From: an uncultured Bacteroidia bacterium
GTDB taxonomy: Bacteria; Bacteroidota; Bacteroidia; Bacteroidales; Prolixibacteraceae
Reading direction: 5' to 3'
DNA length: 55,136 bases
Assembly (NCBI GenBank): GCA_903897145.1
Contig: CAIUAN010000060.1
Coordinates: forward strand, 1-55,136
The first letter of the stretch is position 1, and each line of letters starts with the position of its first letter. The notes beneath the pieces are model-generated. The model was not told the DNA's origin and did not search any database. It saw only the letters and a program-made list of their open reading frames with translations. Below are positions 17,622-26,546 of the stretch, one piece after another. A program made the translations under genes and the position numbers.

Positions 17622-18719
17622 ATGAATAAAACCGCTCTTTTCTGTCTATTCTTTAGTATGGGTCTGGCATTAACTCTTATTGCTAGCCAACCATACAAAG
17701 GATCTCAAGCCGTTGTGCTCTCTGAATATCTATTTAAAAAGGAGCAGGTCTCCTTTAAAAGCTGTCATGCTTCAACGATTGCAGAGACTTCTGCAGGGCT
17801 AATTACTGCCTGGTTCGGAGGAACAGAGGAGAAAAATCCGGATGTAGCCATCTGGACGAGTCGATTTATAAATGGCAAATGGTCCATTCCTGTCGAGGTG
17901 GCCAATGGAGTTCAGAAAGATGGCACTCGCTTCCCTACTTGGAATCCTGTGCTATACAATGCAGGCAAAGAGCTTATTCTATTCTATAAAGTTGGTCCTA
18001 ACTGTTCCGATTGGTGGGGAGAGATGAAGACCTCAACCAACAATGGCGCAACGTGGTCGAAATCAACACGTTTACCGAAGGGAATCTGGGGACCTATTAA
18101 AAACAAACCGGTCTTGCTCTCAAACAATGTATTGCTCTGCCCTTCCAGCACCGAATATGATGGCGAAAGAATACATCTAGAATCGACATCAGATGGAGGT
18201 CGGAATTGGCATCGAACGGAAGCCCTTAACGACGGAAAGGAATTCTCAAGTATTCAACCGACTATTTTAAGTTATGGAAATGGCAAACTTCAACTTTTAT
18301 GTCGAAGCAAAAGCCGGGTTATACTTACAACATGGTCGACGGACAATGGCAAAACGTGGAGTCATCTTGAGCGTACTCAGCTTCCAAATCCCGATTCAGG
18401 CATCGATGCCGTAACGCTTAAAAGTGGAGTACAACTTTTAACTTACAACCATTTTAATCCAAAATGGGATTGGGAATCAAGAAACATCCTTACAGTAGCC
18501 ATATCGCAAGATGGAGTGACGTGGGATGGTGCTGCAGCCTTAGAATACGACCTAGATCCAGACACCGAATATTCGTATCCAGCAGTTATTCAAACCAAAG
18601 ATGGTCTGGTTCACATCACCTATACCTGGAATCGAAAACTCATCAAGCATGTGGTCCTCGATCCCAACCGATTCAAAACCAAACCAATTTTAAATGGCAT
18701 CTGGCCAGAAGAAAAATAA
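17622..18719 (+). CDS. BNR/Asp-box beta-propeller protein (sialidase-like family), exported
   Basis: The 365-residue protein opens with a signal peptide (MNKTALFCLFFSMGLALTLIAS). The mature part is a six-bladed propeller of the BNR_2 family with at least four Asp boxes: 'STNNGATWS', 'TSDGGRNWH', 'STDNGKTWS' and 'SQDGVTWD'. Also visible is the family signature 'SCHASTI..AWFGGTEEKNPDVAIW'. Databases call such proteins exo-alpha-sialidase, but the RIP/FRIP arginine motif of true GH33 sialidases is not visible, so sialidase activity is doubtful; related propellers act on other glycans. It is probably periplasmic. It is first in a run of closely spaced genes (24 bp to the next). Confidence 0.8.
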   Translation: MNKTALFCLFFSMGLALTLIASQPYKGSQAVVLSEYLFKKEQVSFKSCHASTIAETSAGLITAWFGGTEEKNPDVAIWTSRFINGKWSIPVEVANGVQKDGTRFPTWNPVLYNAGKELILFYKVGPNCSDWWGEMKTSTNNGATWSKSTRLPKGIWGPIKNKPVLLSNNVLLCPSSTEYDGERIHLESTSDGGRNWHRTEALNDGKEFSSIQPTILSYGNGKLQLLCRSKSRVILTTWSTDNGKTWSHLERTQLPNPDSGIDAVTLKSGVQLLTYNHFNPKWDWESRNILTVAISQDGVTWDGAAALEYDLDPDTEYSYPAVIQTKDGLVHITYTWNRKLIKHVVLDPNRFKTKPILNGIWPEEK

Positions 18720-18743: not shown

Positions 18744-19937
18744 ATGAAAACTACTATTCTCCTCTTATCCCTTTCACTTTTCGTGACCTTTCAGGGAATT
18801 ACTCAGTCAAGGAATTCCAAGCAAGCCATCGTGCGTGAAGAGCTTATCTTCCCAACACAAAACGAGCATACTCATGGCAGCAGCTTAGTCTCCTTACCCA
18901 ATGGGGACTTACTTGCAGTCTGGTTTCAAGGAAGTGGTGAGCGCACAGCTGATGATGTTCGCGTGATGGGATCGAGACTAAAAAAAGGGGCAAAAGAGTG
19001 GGCTACCCCTTTTCTAATGGCCGATACGAAAGGTATTCCAGACTGCAATCCAGTCTTATTCTTAAATCAAAAAGGGAAACTGTTCCTGTTCTGGGTTGCT
19101 GTTTTAGCGAATAAATGGGAGAATGGAATATTGCGTTTTAAAACCTCAACCAATTACAACGGTGATGCGGCCCCAATCTGGGAATGGCAAGACGATATAT
19201 TATTTAAACCTACTGACAGTTTTGCGAAGGAGGTAGAACAAAAGTTCAAAGATATGCCTGAAAAACATGCGGGATGGGCTGCTTTCGCACCTACGTATGA
19301 TAATCTCATCAAAGAAGCTAGTAAAGATCTAACCAAAAGAACCTTTGGCTGGATGGGGCGTATACATCCTATCACTTTAGCCAGTGGAAGAATCCTACTG
19401 CCTCTTTACAACGATGGATTTAATTTCTCCTTGGTCGCTATTTCCGATGATGATGGCGCCACCTGGAGACCTAGTCTTCCAATTGTAGGACGAGGACCAA
19501 TACAGCCTGCTTTAGCAATCAAAAAAGATGGAACTATCGTTGCCTATATGCGCGACAGTGGTGATGCACCTACCAGAGTTCACCGGAGTACCTCAACCGA
19601 CAATGGCGAGACATGGAGCTACTCGGTAAAAACAGATATCCCAAATGAGGCAAGTGTTGAGCTCTGCGTCCTTAAAGATGGGAAATGGGCCTTCTTAGGC
19701 AATGACATCAATGACGGCCGCTATCAACTTTCCCTGTATCTTTCGGATGACGAAGGAGAAACCTGGAGATGGAAAGAGCTTATCGAATATGAGGCAGATA
19801 AAAAAGGTAGTTATTCCTATCCTTGCTTGATACAAACACCTGATGGACTGCTAAACATGACCTATTCCTATGCAAAAGGAGAAGGGAAAAAATCAATTAA
19901 GCATGTCGTTATTGATCCAAAAAAACTTACGAAATAA
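18744..19937 (+). CDS. Second BNR/Asp-box beta-propeller protein (sialidase-like family), exported
   Basis: The 397-residue protein begins with a signal peptide (MKTTILLLSLSLFVTFQGITQS). Asp boxes are visible as 'SDDDGATWRP', 'STDNGETWS' and 'SDDEGETWRW', with the blade pattern of the BNR_2 family ('TPDGLLNMTYSY' near the C-terminus). It is clearly related in fold to the preceding gene. It is longer, with an insertion of about 60 residues between blades ('DDILFKPTDSFAKEVEQKFK' region), and the two share only short motifs, so they are not recent copies. As with its neighbour, true sialidase residues were not recognised. Two different propellers in tandem suggest two linkages in one substrate. 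Confidence 0.8.
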   Translation: MKTTILLLSLSLFVTFQGITQSRNSKQAIVREELIFPTQNEHTHGSSLVSLPNGDLLAVWFQGSGERTADDVRVMGSRLKKGAKEWATPFLMADTKGIPDCNPVLFLNQKGKLFLFWVAVLANKWENGILRFKTSTNYNGDAAPIWEWQDDILFKPTDSFAKEVEQKFKDMPEKHAGWAAFAPTYDNLIKEASKDLTKRTFGWMGRIHPITLASGRILLPLYNDGFNFSLVAISDDDGATWRPSLPIVGRGPIQPALAIKKDGTIVAYMRDSGDAPTRVHRSTSTDNGETWSYSVKTDIPNEASVELCVLKDGKWAFLGNDINDGRYQLSLYLSDDEGETWRWKELIEYEADKKGSYSYPCLIQTPDGLLNMTYSYAKGEGKKSIKHVVIDPKKLTK

Positions 19938-19972: not shown

Positions 19973-21052
19973 ATGAAAATAAAGACCAATCCATTAAAAA
20001 AGCATTCAAATGGCCACTTCAGTAAAATACTGAACTCGGCTTTAGGAATTGCTTTCGCACTAACTATTCTTGCCCTTCCAACAACCCTATTGGCGAACAA
20101 ACATGCCAACGAAGCGACAGGGAAAGCAGTCCCAACAGCAGAATCAAAACAGAAAGAGCAAACCGGAGCTGAGAAACTTGGTTTCCCATCTGGTAAGGTG
20201 GTCTTGTTATTACATATTGATGATGCGGGGATGTGTCCCGAGGCCAATACCTCAACCTTCAATTATATAGAGAAGGGATTTCTAAATTCTGCGGCTGTGA
20301 TGATGCCTTGTCCAAATGCCGAAGCGATCATTAAATGGGCAACAAAGCATCCGAAGGCAGACATTGGTCTTCATCTTACCCTTACCAGTGAATGGACAAA
20401 CCACCGCTGGGGACCGGTTTCAGATCCTAAAAAAGTTCCTGGACTTATCGACCCAGATGGAAAATTATGGCATGAAGTGCCAGATGTGGTAGCCCATGCA
20501 TCGGCTAAAGAAGTTGAGACAGAGATTCGCGCTCAGATCGAAAAATCTATTGCCCTTGGATACCGTCCAAACCATATCGACACCCATATGGGGACACTCT
20601 ACGGATCACCTGAGTACGTTAAAGTATTCCTAAAAGTTGCCGAAGATTATCATATCCCTGGAAATATCATCAATGTGGCAAACCCTGAGATTGCTGAAAA
20701 TTTCAGAGTAGCTGCTGGATACCCTATCACAGAAGAGGTTATTACGAATATTCGCAACTACAGCATGCCCAAGCTTGATAATTTCACAAGTGTAGGACCA
20801 GGTGATACCTATGAGATCAAGAGAACGAACTTCTTCACCCTTGTGAAGTCTCTCAAGGCAGGTCTGACAGAAATAATATTCCACCCTTCGGTTCCAAATG
20901 AAAACTTAAAATCAATTACTGGCACCTGGAAGCAAAGAGGCTGGGAAGGTGATTTATTTGCAGATCCAGTAGTCATCAAATTTTTAAAAGACCAAGGGGT
21001 GATCATCACCGATTGGAAAGAGATTATGGCTCGATTTGAAAAAAAGAAGTAA
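19973..21052 (+). CDS. Exported YdjC/ChbG-family carbohydrate deacetylase
   Basis: This 359-residue protein has a signal peptide with a long n-region (hydrophobic core about residues 24-42, 'LGIAFALTILALPTTLLA'). From 'GAEKLGFPSGK' onward it is a YdjC/ChbG domain: 'HIDDAGMC' (D83, D84), 'GLHLTLTSEW', and 'HIDTHMGTLYG' provide the Asp and His metal ligands of the family. ChbG removes an N-acetyl group from chitooligosaccharides in the cytoplasm; here the leader places it outside the inner membrane. The final ~295 residues are about 80% identical by hand alignment to the C-terminal domain of the next protein. Placement among GH20/GH123-like enzymes suggests deacetylation of a released N-acetylhexosamine unit (inference). 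Confidence 0.85.
   Translation: MKIKTNPLKKHSNGHFSKILNSALGIAFALTILALPTTLLANKHANEATGKAVPTAESKQKEQTGAEKLGFPSGKVVLLLHIDDAGMCPEANTSTFNYIEKGFLNSAAVMMPCPNAEAIIKWATKHPKADIGLHLTLTSEWTNHRWGPVSDPKKVPGLIDPDGKLWHEVPDVVAHASAKEVETEIRAQIEKSIALGYRPNHIDTHMGTLYGSPEYVKVFLKVAEDYHIPGNIINVANPEIAENFRVAAGYPITEEVITNIRNYSMPKLDNFTSVGPGDTYEIKRTNFFTLVKSLKAGLTEIIFHPSVPNENLKSITGTWKQRGWEGDLFADPVVIKFLKDQGVIITDWKEIMARFEKKK
20900..21028 (+). repeat. Near-identical repeat, copy 1 (deacetylase 3' end)
   Basis: These 129 bp match 25305-25433 with only five differences that I counted, including unbroken identical runs of 47 and 51 bp. All five changes are silent: the encoded 43 residues are identical. The rest of the two deacetylase domains has clearly diverged, so this segment looks homogenised by gene conversion. 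Confidence 0.85.
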
Positions 21053-21104: not shown

Positions 21105-24100
21105 ATGATTCAAACGGCTAATAAGTCAGGGATGGAGCATCTTCCTCTTCGGAAGTTAAGCCTCCTCGGAATGCTATTGCTAGTCACTGTTTTTGCGATA
21201 TTTCCGCAGAAACTTTCGGCGCAGAAGATTAACCTTCCCCTGAAATGGGCAACGAATCAAAAGAGCTTCATTGAAAGTGCAGCAACAGTAGCCGATGTGA
21301 ACAATGATGGCTTAGACGAAGCCATAGTCACGTCGCAAGAAGAAGTTATAGCGATTGGAAAGAGTGGGAATAATCTTTGGCGCTGGCGATCAAAAGGGAG
21401 GTTTATGACTTACCCCTCGGTATTAAAACGTGCTGGAAAATCGGCTTTGATTTATGCGGCCGATAATAGAGGAAATGTAACTTGTCTTGACGGACTAGGA
21501 AAGGTTGTCTGGCAAGCTAACTTAGAGGCAGGTACTGATTGGTCTGCCGGAGTAATCGCAGATCTTGATGGGGATGGAAATCAGGAGTATATTCAGACTG
21601 ATGCCTCTGGGAATATCTGGATATTTGACGCCATTAGTGGCAAGGTGGTAAAGAAAACAAAGATTTTAGGACAGCCTGTTAGCCCATCAATTGGAGATTT
21701 AGACGGAGATGGGAAACTAGAACTTGTTGTTGCAACTACCGATGGTTCATTAACTGCGCTAACACATGATCTAATCACCATATGGCGAATTAAGATTGGC
21801 GGAGCATCAGAATCTTGGTCTACCCCTGCGCCAGTGATGTTTGGCGCCTCGAATGGTAAAAGCTATATCATAGCCGCTTCCAGCAATGGAGAGGTATTCT
21901 GCCTCGATGCTAAAGGCAAATCAACTTGGCAATATCCGACAAACGTGCCGGTATCCTCCTCTATCTCTGTTGGCGATTTCGATCAAGATGGGGAGGCCGA
22001 CATCTTTCTTATTACCCATTCCGGAATTATTTACAGATTCGATGAGCGAGGAAATGTTCTTTGGAACATCGACATGCAAGGCCGATCTCTAGCACCTGGA
22101 GCAATTGCAGATATTGATGGAGATGGAAAATTAGAATATCTAGTAACAACCCAAGTTGGACATATATTAGCTTTGAATAATCAAGGGACGGTGATTTTCG
22201 ACCATCAACTGCCTTCAAGAGCGATCAATGTCACTGCATCATTTGGTCATGTGACTGGCAACAGCGATAAACTTGATTTCGTGGTAACAGGCGGCGAATC
22301 AGGCATGACCTACTGCTTTCAAACTTCAAGTGCAAAAAATCCAAAGTTGCAATGGACCAATTACAGATCAAACATACAAAACACAGGCACATGGTTCGGA
22401 TTAACAAAATCTGATGAATTAAGAATGGTTCCTCAAAATTTATCGTGGAATAAAATTCTAAATGGTGAAAAAATAAAATTCAACATCACCAATCCTAATC
22501 CAACCATAAATCCATTGAAAGCACATGTCGAATGCATTAGTCCAAATGGGACTAAAAATTCTGCCATTGCAAATATTTACAATAAAGAAGGTCAAATCTA
22601 TCTTCCAGCAAACTTCACTATTCCTGGCATTTATCAGCTGAGCTGGTCTGTTTCTGATTCGAATGGAAAAGAGTTGTTAGCGGCTTCTAAAAGTGTAACC
22701 ATACAACCATTCGAAAACGATCGCTCTTTGGCTTCTCAAGCTATCAAAGCTTTAACTAGCAGTGCGGAGAAAATTTCTTCGATCTTACCTTTGTCAGCGT
22801 TGGCCTTGCAAAAAGAAGCCGCTGAAATTCAAGCAGAAGCTACCAAACTATCGACAGAGCAATCGAAAGTACCGCAAAGCAATTCTGTATTTAGCCAGTC
22901 GATCATAAAATCAACTGCGAAACTTAATGAGTCAGCTAAACGAGCAATCACGGTAAGCGGTCTTGTTGCTCAAGCAGCGAATCTTGGTGCTGGAACAAGC
23001 TTAATCGCCTTTGAAGGAGATAAATGGGACAACCGCAATGTTGACAAGCAATTGCCAACAAACGTCGAAAATCCACTAAACTTAGATCATATAGTAGTCC
23101 CGAGTGAACACCATCCAATACCGATTGTGATGTTTAACATTACAGATCATTTGCTCAATGCTAGATTAGTTTTAGACAAGCCGGTAGCGGGTATCAAAGT
23201 AACCCCATTGCGCTCTATCAACACGGCGAGTTCCCTTGGCGAGGATTCTTGGGATGCACTACCGGAACTCGATGAATCGGGAGTCGTTTCTATTCCGGCC
23301 CTCTCAAGTAGAGAAGTTTGGCTAGATATTGAAATCGAATCGACAGCTAAAGGAAAACAAAATTTAGAGTTCACCATCCAAGCTCTTAACGGTGCTGGTG
23401 TTTTAGATACATCAAATGATCCACATGATGTTCCAGCTCCAGAGACGAAGGTAAAAGTGACACTCGACATCTTACCATTTACGATGGCTCCATCGTCTGA
23501 CTTTAGAATGTGTACTTGGTCACCATCTAAAGGGCCAGAGGTTCCTTCGTTGCTCGCACATGGAAACAACGTCTTCTTATTGACTAATCCAATATTTAAA
23601 TACAATGAGAAAAATGAACTTATTGGATTTGATTATTCGGGCCAAGATGAGGCGTTAGCCCAGCTCAAAGGGAAAGAGGTCTTTTTACTGATCAATGGTT
23701 TGCCAGGTATTAAAGAGGAATTTGCGAGCGAAGGTTACAAAAAACAGTTCAATACCTATCTTAAAGATCTGATCGCTCATTTATCAAGTTTTGGATTTGG
23801 AATCAATCAGTTTGCCCTTTATCCAATCGATGAGCCAGGGGGCAATGGTTGGGCAGCCGTTAAACAAGTTGTTAAATTTGGGGAAATCGCCAATGCTGCG
23901 AACCCTGATGTGATGATTTACCAAGATGGTGGCGGCGAATTACCAATGTTTCAAGCCATGTCTAAATCGGTGAATGTCTGGAGTCCAACCATCGACTGGG
24001 TAGGTGACAAGTCGCCTGAGATGGATATTATGAGGACAAAGAAGAAATTCCTTTGGTCCTACAATTGCTCCTATGCCTCTTCAAGGCCAGTTGGACCAAA

Positions 24101-25457
24101 CATTAAAAACATCAACTTGATTTATGAATTTCGCACAGCTGCTTTACTTGCTATTCGTAACGGTGTTTCCGGCATTGGTTTCTGGTGTTATAATCTAGGT
24201 GCTGAAAATCCATGGTCAAGAATAAAACAAGAATACAATCTCGTCTATCCAGGGAAAACAAAATCGATTACCAGTCGTCGTTGGGAAGCGGTTCGAGAAG
24301 GAATTGAAGATTATAGGATCTTAGCGGCATTAAAGAGCAGTCTAAGTGATGCGAATATTGACCCATCGGTACGCAAGAGTATCGAACATCTGCTCAATGT
24401 CAGTCTGCCAGAATTTATTGATCCAGGATATCAGGCGATGAAGCTGGGATTCTCCAGGGAGGTTTTTGATTTTGTCTGCAGCGAATCTAAGATGACCAAT
24501 TTTAGAGACGAGATGATGAACTGCATTCAACTTCTAAATTCAAAGAAAAAAGCGGCAGAAAACAGAACATCGGCAGAGAAACTTGGATTTCCAAAAGGGA
24601 AAAAAGTTATCCTATTGCATATCGACGATGTGGGTATGTGTCCCGAGGCCAATCAATCTACAATAAGCTACATCGAGAAAGGCTTTTTAAATTCAGCTGC
24701 CGTGATGATGCCATGTCCAAATGCAAATGCCATGATTCAATGGGCTAACACACATCCAAAAGCGGATGTCGGACTTCATCTTACGCTAACAAGTGAGTGG
24801 AAAAACCACCGTTGGGGATCTATTTCTGATCCGACAAAAGTTCCGGGATTAATCGATCCATTTGGGAAGCTGTGGCCTGAAGTCCCTGATGTGATTGCAC
24901 ATGCATCGGCCAAAGAGGTAGAGATGGAGATTAGAGCTCAGATCGAAAAATCCATTGCTCTTGGACATCGTCCAACCCATATCGATACACATATGGGAAC
25001 CCTCTATGGCACTGAAGGATACGTCAAAGCCTTTTTAAAAGTTGCTGAGGAGTACCATATTCCTGGTAATATCATCGACCTTTCGAATCCTGCGATTGCG
25101 GATGCTTACCGAAAAACAAGAACCTGGCCTATCAATGAGGATATCATCAATGCAATTACGGAGTATAAAATGCCCAAACTAGATAATTTCACCAGCGTAC
25201 AACCAGGTGAAACCTACGAGCTAAAAAGAGAGAACTTCTTCACATTAATAAAGGGTTTAAATGAAGGTCTAACAGAAATTATCTTCCACCCTTCAACACC
25301 TACAGAAAACTTAAAATCAATTACTGGCACCTGGAAGCAAAGAGGCTGGGAGGGAGATTTATTTGCAGATCCTGTGGTCATTAAATTTTTAAAAGACCAA
25401 GGGGTGATCATCACCGATTGGAAAGAGATTATGAAACGATTCGAAGCAAAAAAATAA
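21105..25457 (+). CDS. FG-GAP propeller + GH123-like (DUF4091) + YdjC deacetylase fusion protein, exported
   Basis: The start ATG at 21105 is chosen because it leaves a signal peptide (core 'LSLLGMLLLVTVFAIFPQKLSA'). The frame is open further back to 21036, but that would overlap the previous gene. The product is 1450 residues. After the signal, five FG-GAP/VCBS repeats carry Ca-binding DxDxDG loops ('DVNNDGLDE', 'DLDGDGNQE', 'DLDGDGKLE', 'DFDQDGEAD', 'DIDGDGKLE'), about residues 40-460. An Ig-like piece, an Ala/Ser/Glu-rich helical linker (about 545-640) and a jelly roll follow. The GH123-like barrel has D909-E910 in 'YPIDEP' and the DUF4091 tail 'RRWEAVREGIEDYRIL'. From about 1155 to the end it is a complete YdjC domain (HIDD at 1172-1175). 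A beta-N-acetylgalactosaminidase coupled to a deacetylase is the natural reading, not proven. Confidence 0.8.
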   Translation: MIQTANKSGMEHLPLRKLSLLGMLLLVTVFAIFPQKLSAQKINLPLKWATNQKSFIESAATVADVNNDGLDEAIVTSQEEVIAIGKSGNNLWRWRSKGRFMTYPSVLKRAGKSALIYAADNRGNVTCLDGLGKVVWQANLEAGTDWSAGVIADLDGDGNQEYIQTDASGNIWIFDAISGKVVKKTKILGQPVSPSIGDLDGDGKLELVVATTDGSLTALTHDLITIWRIKIGGASESWSTPAPVMFGASNGKSYIIAASSNGEVFCLDAKGKSTWQYPTNVPVSSSISVGDFDQDGEADIFLITHSGIIYRFDERGNVLWNIDMQGRSLAPGAIADIDGDGKLEYLVTTQVGHILALNNQGTVIFDHQLPSRAINVTASFGHVTGNSDKLDFVVTGGESGMTYCFQTSSAKNPKLQWTNYRSNIQNTGTWFGLTKSDELRMVPQNLSWNKILNGEKIKFNITNPNPTINPLKAHVECISPNGTKNSAIANIYNKEGQIYLPANFTIPGIYQLSWSVSDSNGKELLAASKSVTIQPFENDRSLASQAIKALTSSAEKISSILPLSALALQKEAAEIQAEATKLSTEQSKVPQSNSVFSQSIIKSTAKLNESAKRAITVSGLVAQAANLGAGTSLIAFEGDKWDNRNVDKQLPTNVENPLNLDHIVVPSEHHPIPIVMFNITDHLLNARLVLDKPVAGIKVTPLRSINTASSLGEDSWDALPELDESGVVSIPALSSREVWLDIEIESTAKGKQNLEFTIQALNGAGVLDTSNDPHDVPAPETKVKVTLDILPFTMAPSSDFRMCTWSPSKGPEVPSLLAHGNNVFLLTNPIFKYNEKNELIGFDYSGQDEALAQLKGKEVFLLINGLPGIKEEFASEGYKKQFNTYLKDLIAHLSSFGFGINQFALYPIDEPGGNGWAAVKQVVKFGEIANAANPDVMIYQDGGGELPMFQAMSKSVNVWSPTIDWVGDKSPEMDIMRTKKKFLWSYNCSYASSRPVGPNIKNINLIYEFRTAALLAIRNGVSGIGFWCYNLGAENPWSRIKQEYNLVYPGKTKSITSRRWEAVREGIEDYRILAALKSSLSDANIDPSVRKSIEHLLNVSLPEFIDPGYQAMKLGFSREVFDFVCSESKMTNFRDEMMNCIQLLNSKKKAAENRTSAEKLGFPKGKKVILLHIDDVGMCPEANQSTISYIEKGFLNSAAVMMPCPNANAMIQWANTHPKADVGLHLTLTSEWKNHRWGSISDPTKVPGLIDPFGKLWPEVPDVIAHASAKEVEMEIRAQIEKSIALGHRPTHIDTHMGTLYGTEGYVKAFLKVAEEYHIPGNIIDLSNPAIADAYRKTRTWPINEDIINAITEYKMPKLDNFTSVQPGETYELKRENFFTLIKGLNEGLTEIIFHPSTPTENLKSITGTWKQRGWEGDLFADPVVIKFLKDQGVIITDWKEIMKRFEAKK
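25305..25433 (+). repeat. Near-identical repeat, copy 2 (end of the fusion gene)
   Basis: Partner of 20900-21028. It encodes the last part of the YdjC domain of the 1450-residue fusion and stops just before the C-termini diverge. The copies are in direct orientation 4.4 kb apart, so recombination between them could delete most of the fusion gene. Confidence 0.85.
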
Positions 25458-26546
25458 ATGAATAAAATAGATCGATTAATTTCAGTTGACGTCTTCAGAG
25501 GTATAGTTATTGCCTTTATGATCTTGGTTAATTATCCAGGATCATGGGGATATATGTATGCGCCTTTAACTCATTCACATTGGAATGGATTAACTCCAAC
25601 TGATTTAATCTTTCCCTTTTTTATTTTTATTGTGGGTGTTTCTATTGCACTATCTTATTCGAAACAACTTGCTGATTCAAAGCCTCGAAAGGAGATGGTG
25701 AAGAAAATCCTAATCCGAGGAGCTAAAATTTACGCCATTGGATTCTTCCTTCATTACCTCCCTGAGTTTGATTTTAATAAAATTGATCTATTCGGAGTCT
25801 TGCAGCGTATTGCCGAAGTGTTTGTAGCTTGTGCATTGCTCTATCTCTACACTTCTTGGAAAACACAAATTTATATCATCGCGGTAATTTTGGCTGGATA
25901 CTGGCTCACCATGACCTATATCCCAACCGATGCGTTTATTGCAGGAACATCAGAACCTGGTGTAAACTTTGCTGCTTGGGTCGATCGATTGATATTCCCC
26001 ATTGAAACAATTGGAAAACATGGGTGGACAGCCGAAGGATTTTACAGTTGTTTTCCAGCTATTGCCTCAGGAATCATTGGGATGTTAATTGGCCAATTTA
26101 TCGTGATTCGGAAAACATCTGAAAACACCATCCTTTGGCTTGTTGTTGCGGGAGTTGCTTGCATTATAGCTGGAACTATCTGGGGTTGGACTTTCCCTAT
26201 TAATAAAAAAATATGGTCAAGCTCATTTGTTCTAGTCACCTCTGGATGGGCAGCGATAGTACTTGCGTTATCTCTATTTTTAATTGACCTACAAGGTTAT
26301 AAAAACAACCTAATTGCGAAATTCGGAGTTATATTTGGATCAAATGCAATTGCAATTTACATCACGGCCGATCTGTTTGAAACGACCTACAAATACACAG
26401 GAATTCACGACTTCGTTTATCTCGGCTTGACAAATCTTGGTATGTGTGAGCTCAATGCTTCACTGATCTGGTCTTTCTGTTCCGTTCTCTCCTGCTTTTT
26501 AGTCGGATTCATACTGTATCGGAAACAACTCTTTTTCAAAATTTAG
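25458..26546 (+). CDS. Membrane acyltransferase of the heparan-alpha-glucosaminide N-acetyltransferase type (DUF5009)
   Basis: The 362-residue protein has about ten hydrophobic segments. It opens with the family signature 'RLISVDVFRGIVIAFMILVN' and 'HSHWNGLTPTDLIFPFFIFI'. His39 of HxHWNG corresponds in position to the His that carries the acetyl group in human HGSNAT, where a cytoplasmic acetyl-CoA donates acetyl across the membrane to a glucosamine on the far side. The ATG directly follows the stop of the fusion gene, so the two are probably coupled. The enzyme would re-acetylate amino sugars freed by the adjacent deacetylases, or acetylate another group; that direction is inference. A COG4299-type annotation is also possible. 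Confidence 0.8.
   Translation: MNKIDRLISVDVFRGIVIAFMILVNYPGSWGYMYAPLTHSHWNGLTPTDLIFPFFIFIVGVSIALSYSKQLADSKPRKEMVKKILIRGAKIYAIGFFLHYLPEFDFNKIDLFGVLQRIAEVFVACALLYLYTSWKTQIYIIAVILAGYWLTMTYIPTDAFIAGTSEPGVNFAAWVDRLIFPIETIGKHGWTAEGFYSCFPAIASGIIGMLIGQFIVIRKTSENTILWLVVAGVACIIAGTIWGWTFPINKKIWSSSFVLVTSGWAAIVLALSLFLIDLQGYKNNLIAKFGVIFGSNAIAIYITADLFETTYKYTGIHDFVYLGLTNLGMCELNASLIWSFCSVLSCFLVGFILYRKQLFFKI

Follow-up and report, generated by a model that had tools for sequence, protein, structure and literature searches.

A propeller-GH123-YdjC fusion gene in a Prolixibacteraceae genome: a candidate two-step amino-sugar enzyme

What might be achieved by a single protein that joins a glycosidase module, whose catalysis would use the acetamido group of its substrate, to a deacetylase domain that would remove the acetyl? 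The question is raised by a gene at positions 21105-25457 of contig CAIUAN010000060.1 (assembly GCA_903897145.1) from an uncultured Bacteroidia bacterium of the family Prolixibacteraceae; the window analyzed here is the whole 55,136-nucleotide stretch, and the genes and domains of the window given coordinates below are on the forward strand. The gene encodes 1450 amino acids without interruption from an ATG at 21105 to a stop codon ending at 25457, with an in-frame TTG at 21036 as an alternative start (1473 amino acids). The open reading frame (ORF), Pfam, AlphaFold, and Foldseek together give the layout as a signal-peptide-like N-terminus, a propeller, an Ig-like and helical spacer, a glycoside hydrolase family 123 (GH123) module, and a YdjC domain. 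An initial annotation had proposed a propeller, a GH123-like part, and YdjC in this order, and Pfam matches above curated cut-offs bear out all three, including both GH123_cat (formerly DUF4091) and YdjC. Our preferred reading, which we hold with middling confidence, is an enzyme for amino-sugar breakdown, periplasmic (or exported), that works in two steps: it would release a β-linked N-acetylhexosamine (HexNAc) and then deacetylate it.

Conserved modules in one open frame

The GH123 module (residues 640-1150, 23022-24554) comprises a β-sandwich, a catalytic barrel, and C-terminal helices. It is assigned by PF13320 (residues 874-1075, 39.7 bits against a curated cut-off of 23.1), by a profile match to the structure 8k2j, and by its fold. 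The D909-E910 pair singled out in the initial annotation (codons at 23829-23834) is present within the motif YPIDEPGG, and a profile of 17 GH123 modules aligns it with the catalytic DEP of NgaDssm. Nine residues are shared among all GH123 groups under the widened definition of the family (PMC11087588, in excerpt); the window protein has all nine, D717 and W739 being assigned by spacing and local alignment. D909, E910, Y986, G1023, Y1048, and R1059 are kept in 17/17 aligned modules, W739 and W1027 in 16 each, and D717 in 15. An AlphaFold model of residues 440-1450, built from a 31-row alignment, has a mean predicted local distance difference test (pLDDT) score of 87.8 and a predicted template modeling (pTM) score of 0.74. 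It shows the β-sandwich plus barrel fold of GH123, and its first match in a Foldseek search of the PDB is 8k2j, the group 3 β-N-acetylgalactosaminidase NgaDssm (E 4.9e-25), followed by BvGH123.

The same search ranks CmCBDA (8jqe), a member of the YdjC family, fifth (E 2.9e-21). The YdjC deacetylase domain (residues 1156-1450, 24570-25454) is further assigned by PF04794 (residues 1169-1430, 175.5 bits against a cut-off of 29.7) and by alignment to 8jqe and 7vi8. Four motifs, HxDD, GxHLT, H(I/M)D(T/S)HM, and IIFHP, occur in all 41 YdjC domains compared; the first three align with KpChbG (7vi8) and all four with CmCBDA. The active-site residues of KpChbG are D10, D11, H61, H125, and H206 (PMC9402603, in excerpt), of which the first four were aligned directly and the position of H206 was taken from IIFHP against CmCBDA; all five columns are invariant across the 41 domains. 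The description of this domain as complete holds.

The PQQ/FG-GAP β-propeller spans residues 40-440 (21222-22424). In the N-terminal third of the protein, Pfam finds FG-GAP_3 (66.1 bits, cut-off 26.9) and PQQ_2 (54.5 bits, cut-off 27.6), and the λ-carrageenase propeller model scores 75.8 bits against 26.8. The five loops counted in the initial annotation are there: matches to D-x-[DN]-x-[DN]-G-x-x-[DE] fall at residues 64, 153, 198, 291, and 336, whereas 2000 shuffled versions of the protein averaged 0.008 matches and never exceeded one. Some of these DxDxDG loops are degenerate in other fusion proteins, the second most of all, so not every loop need bind calcium, and calcium binding by the propeller is predicted from the motif. 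A model of residues 40-1145 (pLDDT 80.9, pTM 0.59) matched GH123 enzymes, designed propellers, and BamB. Between propeller and GH123, at residues 441-640 (22425-23021), the 440-1450 model places an Ig-like sandwich and three long helices, a spacer of which the initial annotation made no mention. That annotation had described an exported protein of 1450 residues; the length and the open frame stand, and export is suggested by a reading by eye of the N-terminus, which resembles a Sec signal peptide. The protein is thus apparently exported.

The full layout recurs in 10 genomes at 64-99% identity to the query. Nine come from a search of 140 genomes of the family (G000, which is the window's own, and G002, G004, G005, G011, G014, G510, G513, and G514), and the tenth, G082, belongs to another family within the order. 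A draw of 395 genomes from the phylum (E cut-off 1e-10, at most two candidates scored per genome) returned the window's own protein and one weak partial match, and a draw of 393 from the order returned G082 and a partial match without YdjC in G882. A single scan of genome contigs reached close relatives only. An additional copy in G014 is interrupted within YdjC, and the G010 frame ends where YdjC starts. Ratios of nonsynonymous to synonymous rates (dN/dS), estimated for six pairs, lay at 0.05-0.12 (propeller) and 0.05-0.09 (GH123) in five pairs, and at 0.03-0.09 (YdjC) in four of those five; one pair was saturated in all domains, YdjC was saturated in one more, and several other dS values exceeded 1, which makes the figures rough. 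The uninterrupted layout in 10 genomes and the low dN/dS where measurable rule out a frameshift between GH123 and YdjC or an assembly artefact, and recurrence across genomes rules out a one-species oddity. Because relatives share the layout, we conclude that the fusion gene is real.

The same conservation bears on whether the GH123-like module is still a glycosidase or has come to serve the deacetylase as a scaffold or for binding. Its large distance from characterized enzymes would be compatible with the latter; however, the invariance of D909, E910, and Y986, the near invariance of W1027, and the low dN/dS of the module argue against lost catalysis, which we consider very improbable.

From catalytic order to gene neighborhood

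For the activity, substrate, order of steps, location, and propeller role of the fusion, we infer the following scheme. The GH123 module would hydrolyze a β-linked N-acetylhexosaminide by substrate-assisted catalysis, in which D909 would hold the 2-acetamido group and E910 would be the acid/base; N-acetylgalactosamine (GalNAc) seems a more likely substrate than N-acetylglucosamine (GlcNAc). YdjC, as a metal-dependent deacetylase, would then N-deacetylate the sugar or oligosaccharide set free by the cut. Glycan binding or anchoring of the enzyme is the probable role of the propeller. What the analysis shows directly, and what speaks for this scheme, is the domain content, the kept catalytic residues, the folds, the low dN/dS where synonymous change was not saturated, the layout kept in 10 genomes, and a conserved neighborhood with the NagX-like, NagA-like, and NagB-like genes described below. 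The proposed order follows from the published GH123 mechanism: since catalysis uses the acetamido group, the enzyme could not cut at a sugar already deacetylated. A cascade of this kind, hexosaminidase followed by the GlcNAc deacetylase CmCBDA, has yielded glucosamine in vitro (PMC8619855, in excerpt).

The two domains may instead work on different residues. Nearest by sequence, in a profile comparison over only the aligned stretches of group members, are group 3 and group 1 β-N-acetylgalactosaminidases. Enzymes of these types can release oligosaccharides (excerpt of PMC11087588), so something other than a free sugar may be the product. The group 3 loop with the NgaDssm contacts H479 and L485 (numbering taken as chain number plus 23, from three agreeing residues) is a gap in the alignment to 8k2j, so that this mark of group 3 is missing, while the W204 position of NgaDssm is kept. 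Absence of the loop might leave the cleft open, a feature of enzymes that release oligosaccharides. The nearest relatives and the missing loop suit a reading in which GH123 and YdjC each target a different residue within one glycan: GH123 would free a HexNAc-containing oligosaccharide and YdjC would deacetylate another residue, before or after the cut, opening the chain for the products of the locus' sialidase-like, rhamnosidase, or mannosidase genes. Many glycosidase genes do lie close by. In addition, 11 other genomes of the family (L062-L071 and L072) carry YdjC fused to a sialidase-like BNR protein instead of GH123, so the substrate of YdjC is not tied to GH123. The partner is of the BNR2 type in 10 of these (L065 is cut by a contig end) and of the BNR1 type in G056 (L072), Pfam having been run on three of the 11. 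Set against this, characterized YdjC enzymes use small products, chitobiose (PMC9402603) and GlcNAc (PMC8619855), according to the excerpted texts. We regard action on different residues as possible, though doubtful.

The neighborhood supplies further context for both steps. Among the window ORFs of at least 150 amino acids from 1260 to 46530 that were scanned with Pfam (minus two overlapping others on the opposite strand), the order is a divergent AraC regulator, a DHDPS/NanA-type aldolase, the sialidase-like proteins BNR1 (17622-18719) and BNR2 (18744-19937), a standalone YdjC gene (19973-21052), the fusion, and a NagX-like gene. There follow Gfo/Idh/MocA, RraA-like, HpcH/HpaI, and DUF4838 proteins, a NagA-like amidohydrolase, an isomerase-like protein, a second Gfo/Idh/MocA protein, a transporter of the major facilitator superfamily, and NagB-like, GH92, and GH20b-like proteins, with GH92, two GH78-like proteins, and a GH20b-domain protein on the opposite strand. 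The standalone YdjC gene, which the initial annotation had passed over, is a near-duplicate of the fused domain (78% identical) and would perform similar chemistry. Relatives additionally carry a sodium symporter or a flavin adenine dinucleotide protein behind the aldolase. BNR2 lies upstream of the fusion in all 10 loci, and a standalone YdjC gene lies between them in six. Positions 1260-42108 as a whole form a large glycan-use locus (GH92, GH78-like, GH20b-domain, DUF4838, NagA-like, and NagB-like proteins), and no SusC or SusD model appears in the Pfam results for the scanned ORFs. BNR1 and BNR2 adjoin the NanA-type aldolase; both may be canonical sialidases, though their PDB matches to sialidases are weak.

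Directly after the stop codon of the fusion, with its first base one position on, begins the NagX-like gene (25458-26546), which encodes a putative transmembrane acetyltransferase with HGSNAT_cat (45.8 bits against 22) and an acceptor histidine motif; a deacetylase and a putative acetyltransferase are thus encoded back to back. NagX has been proposed to acetylate periplasmic glucosamine with cytoplasmic acetyl-CoA (PMC9007349, in excerpt). In the two-step scheme the free amino sugar would pass to the NagX-like protein, thought to re-acetylate it from that pool, and also to the NagA-like and NagB-like enzymes. The same arrangement invites a scheme of acyl exchange outside the cytoplasm, in which YdjC would strip an N-acyl group, perhaps not acetyl, from a GH123-released hexosamine and the NagX-like protein would restore acetyl from cytoplasmic acetyl-CoA; unusual N-acylated hexosamines would in this way become ordinary N-acetylhexosamine before uptake, and the ordinary route would then be usable. 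The gene order, the histidine motif, the activity proposed for NagX, and the NagA-like gene downstream speak for such an exchange, and the NagX-like gene directly follows the fusion in eight of the 10 loci. However, it does not in the other two, its product scores 176.8 bits against the 480 of the NCBIfam NagX model, nothing points to a non-acetyl substrate, and the catalysis known for GH123 involves the acetamido group. Acyl exchange strikes us as unlikely.

Several points weigh against the two-step enzyme that we prefer. Identity to GH123 structures is 14-16% over the fold match, and because the H479/L485 loop is missing, the sugar specificity of group 3 would not be transferable. The fused YdjC is 27% identical to CmCBDA in the Foldseek match and falls below the cut-off of every named deacetylase model, that for ChbG (the NCBIfam chitin disaccharide deacetylase equivalog) giving 56.8 bits against 227. 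The NagX-like, NagA-like, and NagB-like proteins are likewise all below their named-model cut-offs. YdjC occurs without this GH123 module in most genomes of the family, and the two steps are therefore not coupled everywhere. Finally, re-acetylation straight after deacetylation looks wasteful for plain GlcNAc, for which the downstream putative acetyltransferase goes unexplained; acyl exchange or action on different residues would explain it. Cutting and deacetylating may be only half of the story, because the downstream NagX-like gene would restore the acetyl group.

Origin of the fusion and probable exchange with standalone YdjC genes

How did the three parts come together? The propeller-GH123 parts of the 11 fused rows, the truncated G010 included, form one clade with support of 94/96, just below the tree tool's own mark for firm support. 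Its sisters are unfused propeller-GH123 proteins from another genus, about 41% identical. Since these parts form one clade, the fusion probably arose once, and since they group together, a repeated origin of the whole fusion is not favored. The GH123 tree kept the broken second G014 copy and left out L073, L075, and L083 as partial; L057 and L087 were omitted as repeats of contigs already included.

The YdjC tails have a different history. Monophyly of the 10 fused tails is rejected (log-likelihood 204.9 lower, approximately unbiased (AU) test p 1.9e-5), with the rows for this test picked by architecture after the tree had been seen. In the YdjC tree, from which the broken G014 copy was left out as too short and in which the tail of a G009 remnant was labeled standalone, the fused tails fall beside either same-lineage standalone YdjC or BNR-YdjC fusions, a pattern suggestive of gene conversion or an exchange of domains. 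When the window's two YdjC copies are aligned, 137 of the final 150 bases are identical; the five preceding blocks have 92 to 121 identities per 150, and no such sharp rise was seen in the four other genomes tested. In the G016 locus the propeller-GH123 part is absent and one YdjC gene is left. Of its first 219 informative sites, 184 match the upstream copy, 14 the fused copy, and 21 neither, and the last 11 all match the fused copy; the gene is thus a chimera of both copies, as expected of recombination between them. A short ORF in G009 (L073:8606-9763) runs from the beginning of the fusion protein straight into YdjC, which looks like an in-frame deletion of the propeller-GH123 part. Taken together, the trees and these loci suggest a single fusion event, after which gene conversion or domain exchange took place and losses occurred now and then.

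Relation to known proteins

Proteins with part of this layout occur elsewhere. L060, L061, and L044 of the sister genus have propeller, spacer, and GH123 in the same order but end before YdjC, and the two of these loci that have neighbors show other genes. Propeller-GH123 proteins without YdjC also occur as L084, L085, L086, and L088 (1081-1188 amino acids, GH123 part 24-29% identical), in hosts that include genera of this family as well as one further family. The BNR-YdjC fusions carry the same YdjC family at the C-terminus and hold the same operon position as the window fusion, and differ in their sialidase-like N-terminal partner. Among characterized enzymes, NgaDssm (8k2j, group 3) and NgaCa (8k2f, group 1), described in the excerpted PMC11087588, share the fold, the DE motif, and the group-wide residues with the window module, but are only about 15% identical to it, and the matched structures have neither propeller nor YdjC. 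CmCBDA and KpChbG share fold and active-site motifs with the window YdjC, which, unlike them, sits behind a glycosidase in an apparently exported protein.

According to the initial annotation this architecture is not known to have been described, and among open-licence PubMed Central articles we likewise found no paper that pairs YdjC with GH123, DUF4091 with a deacetylase, or YdjC with a sialidase in Bacteroid- (word stem); among the matches listed there for YdjC, polysaccharide utilization loci, and fusion, none places YdjC in a glycan locus. The closest published fusion that we found is SiaBb3 of Bifidobacterium bifidum, in which GH123 is likewise joined to a second catalytic domain for two steps on one protein. 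There, however, the partner is a sialidase and not a deacetylase, the protein is anchored to the cell wall, and the excerpt of PMC12856340 reports no propeller.

If both domains work, the window protein would be a natural fusion of the hexosaminidase and YdjC deacetylase pair that has already been put together artificially to obtain glucosamine from chitin (excerpt of PMC8619855). It would also place YdjC in exported glycan breakdown and supply an instance, open to testing, of a deacetylase encoded next to a putative transmembrane acetyltransferase. The tail, apparently rewritten from the adjacent gene, shows how a multi-enzyme protein can either stay matched to its standalone paralogue or be lost to it.

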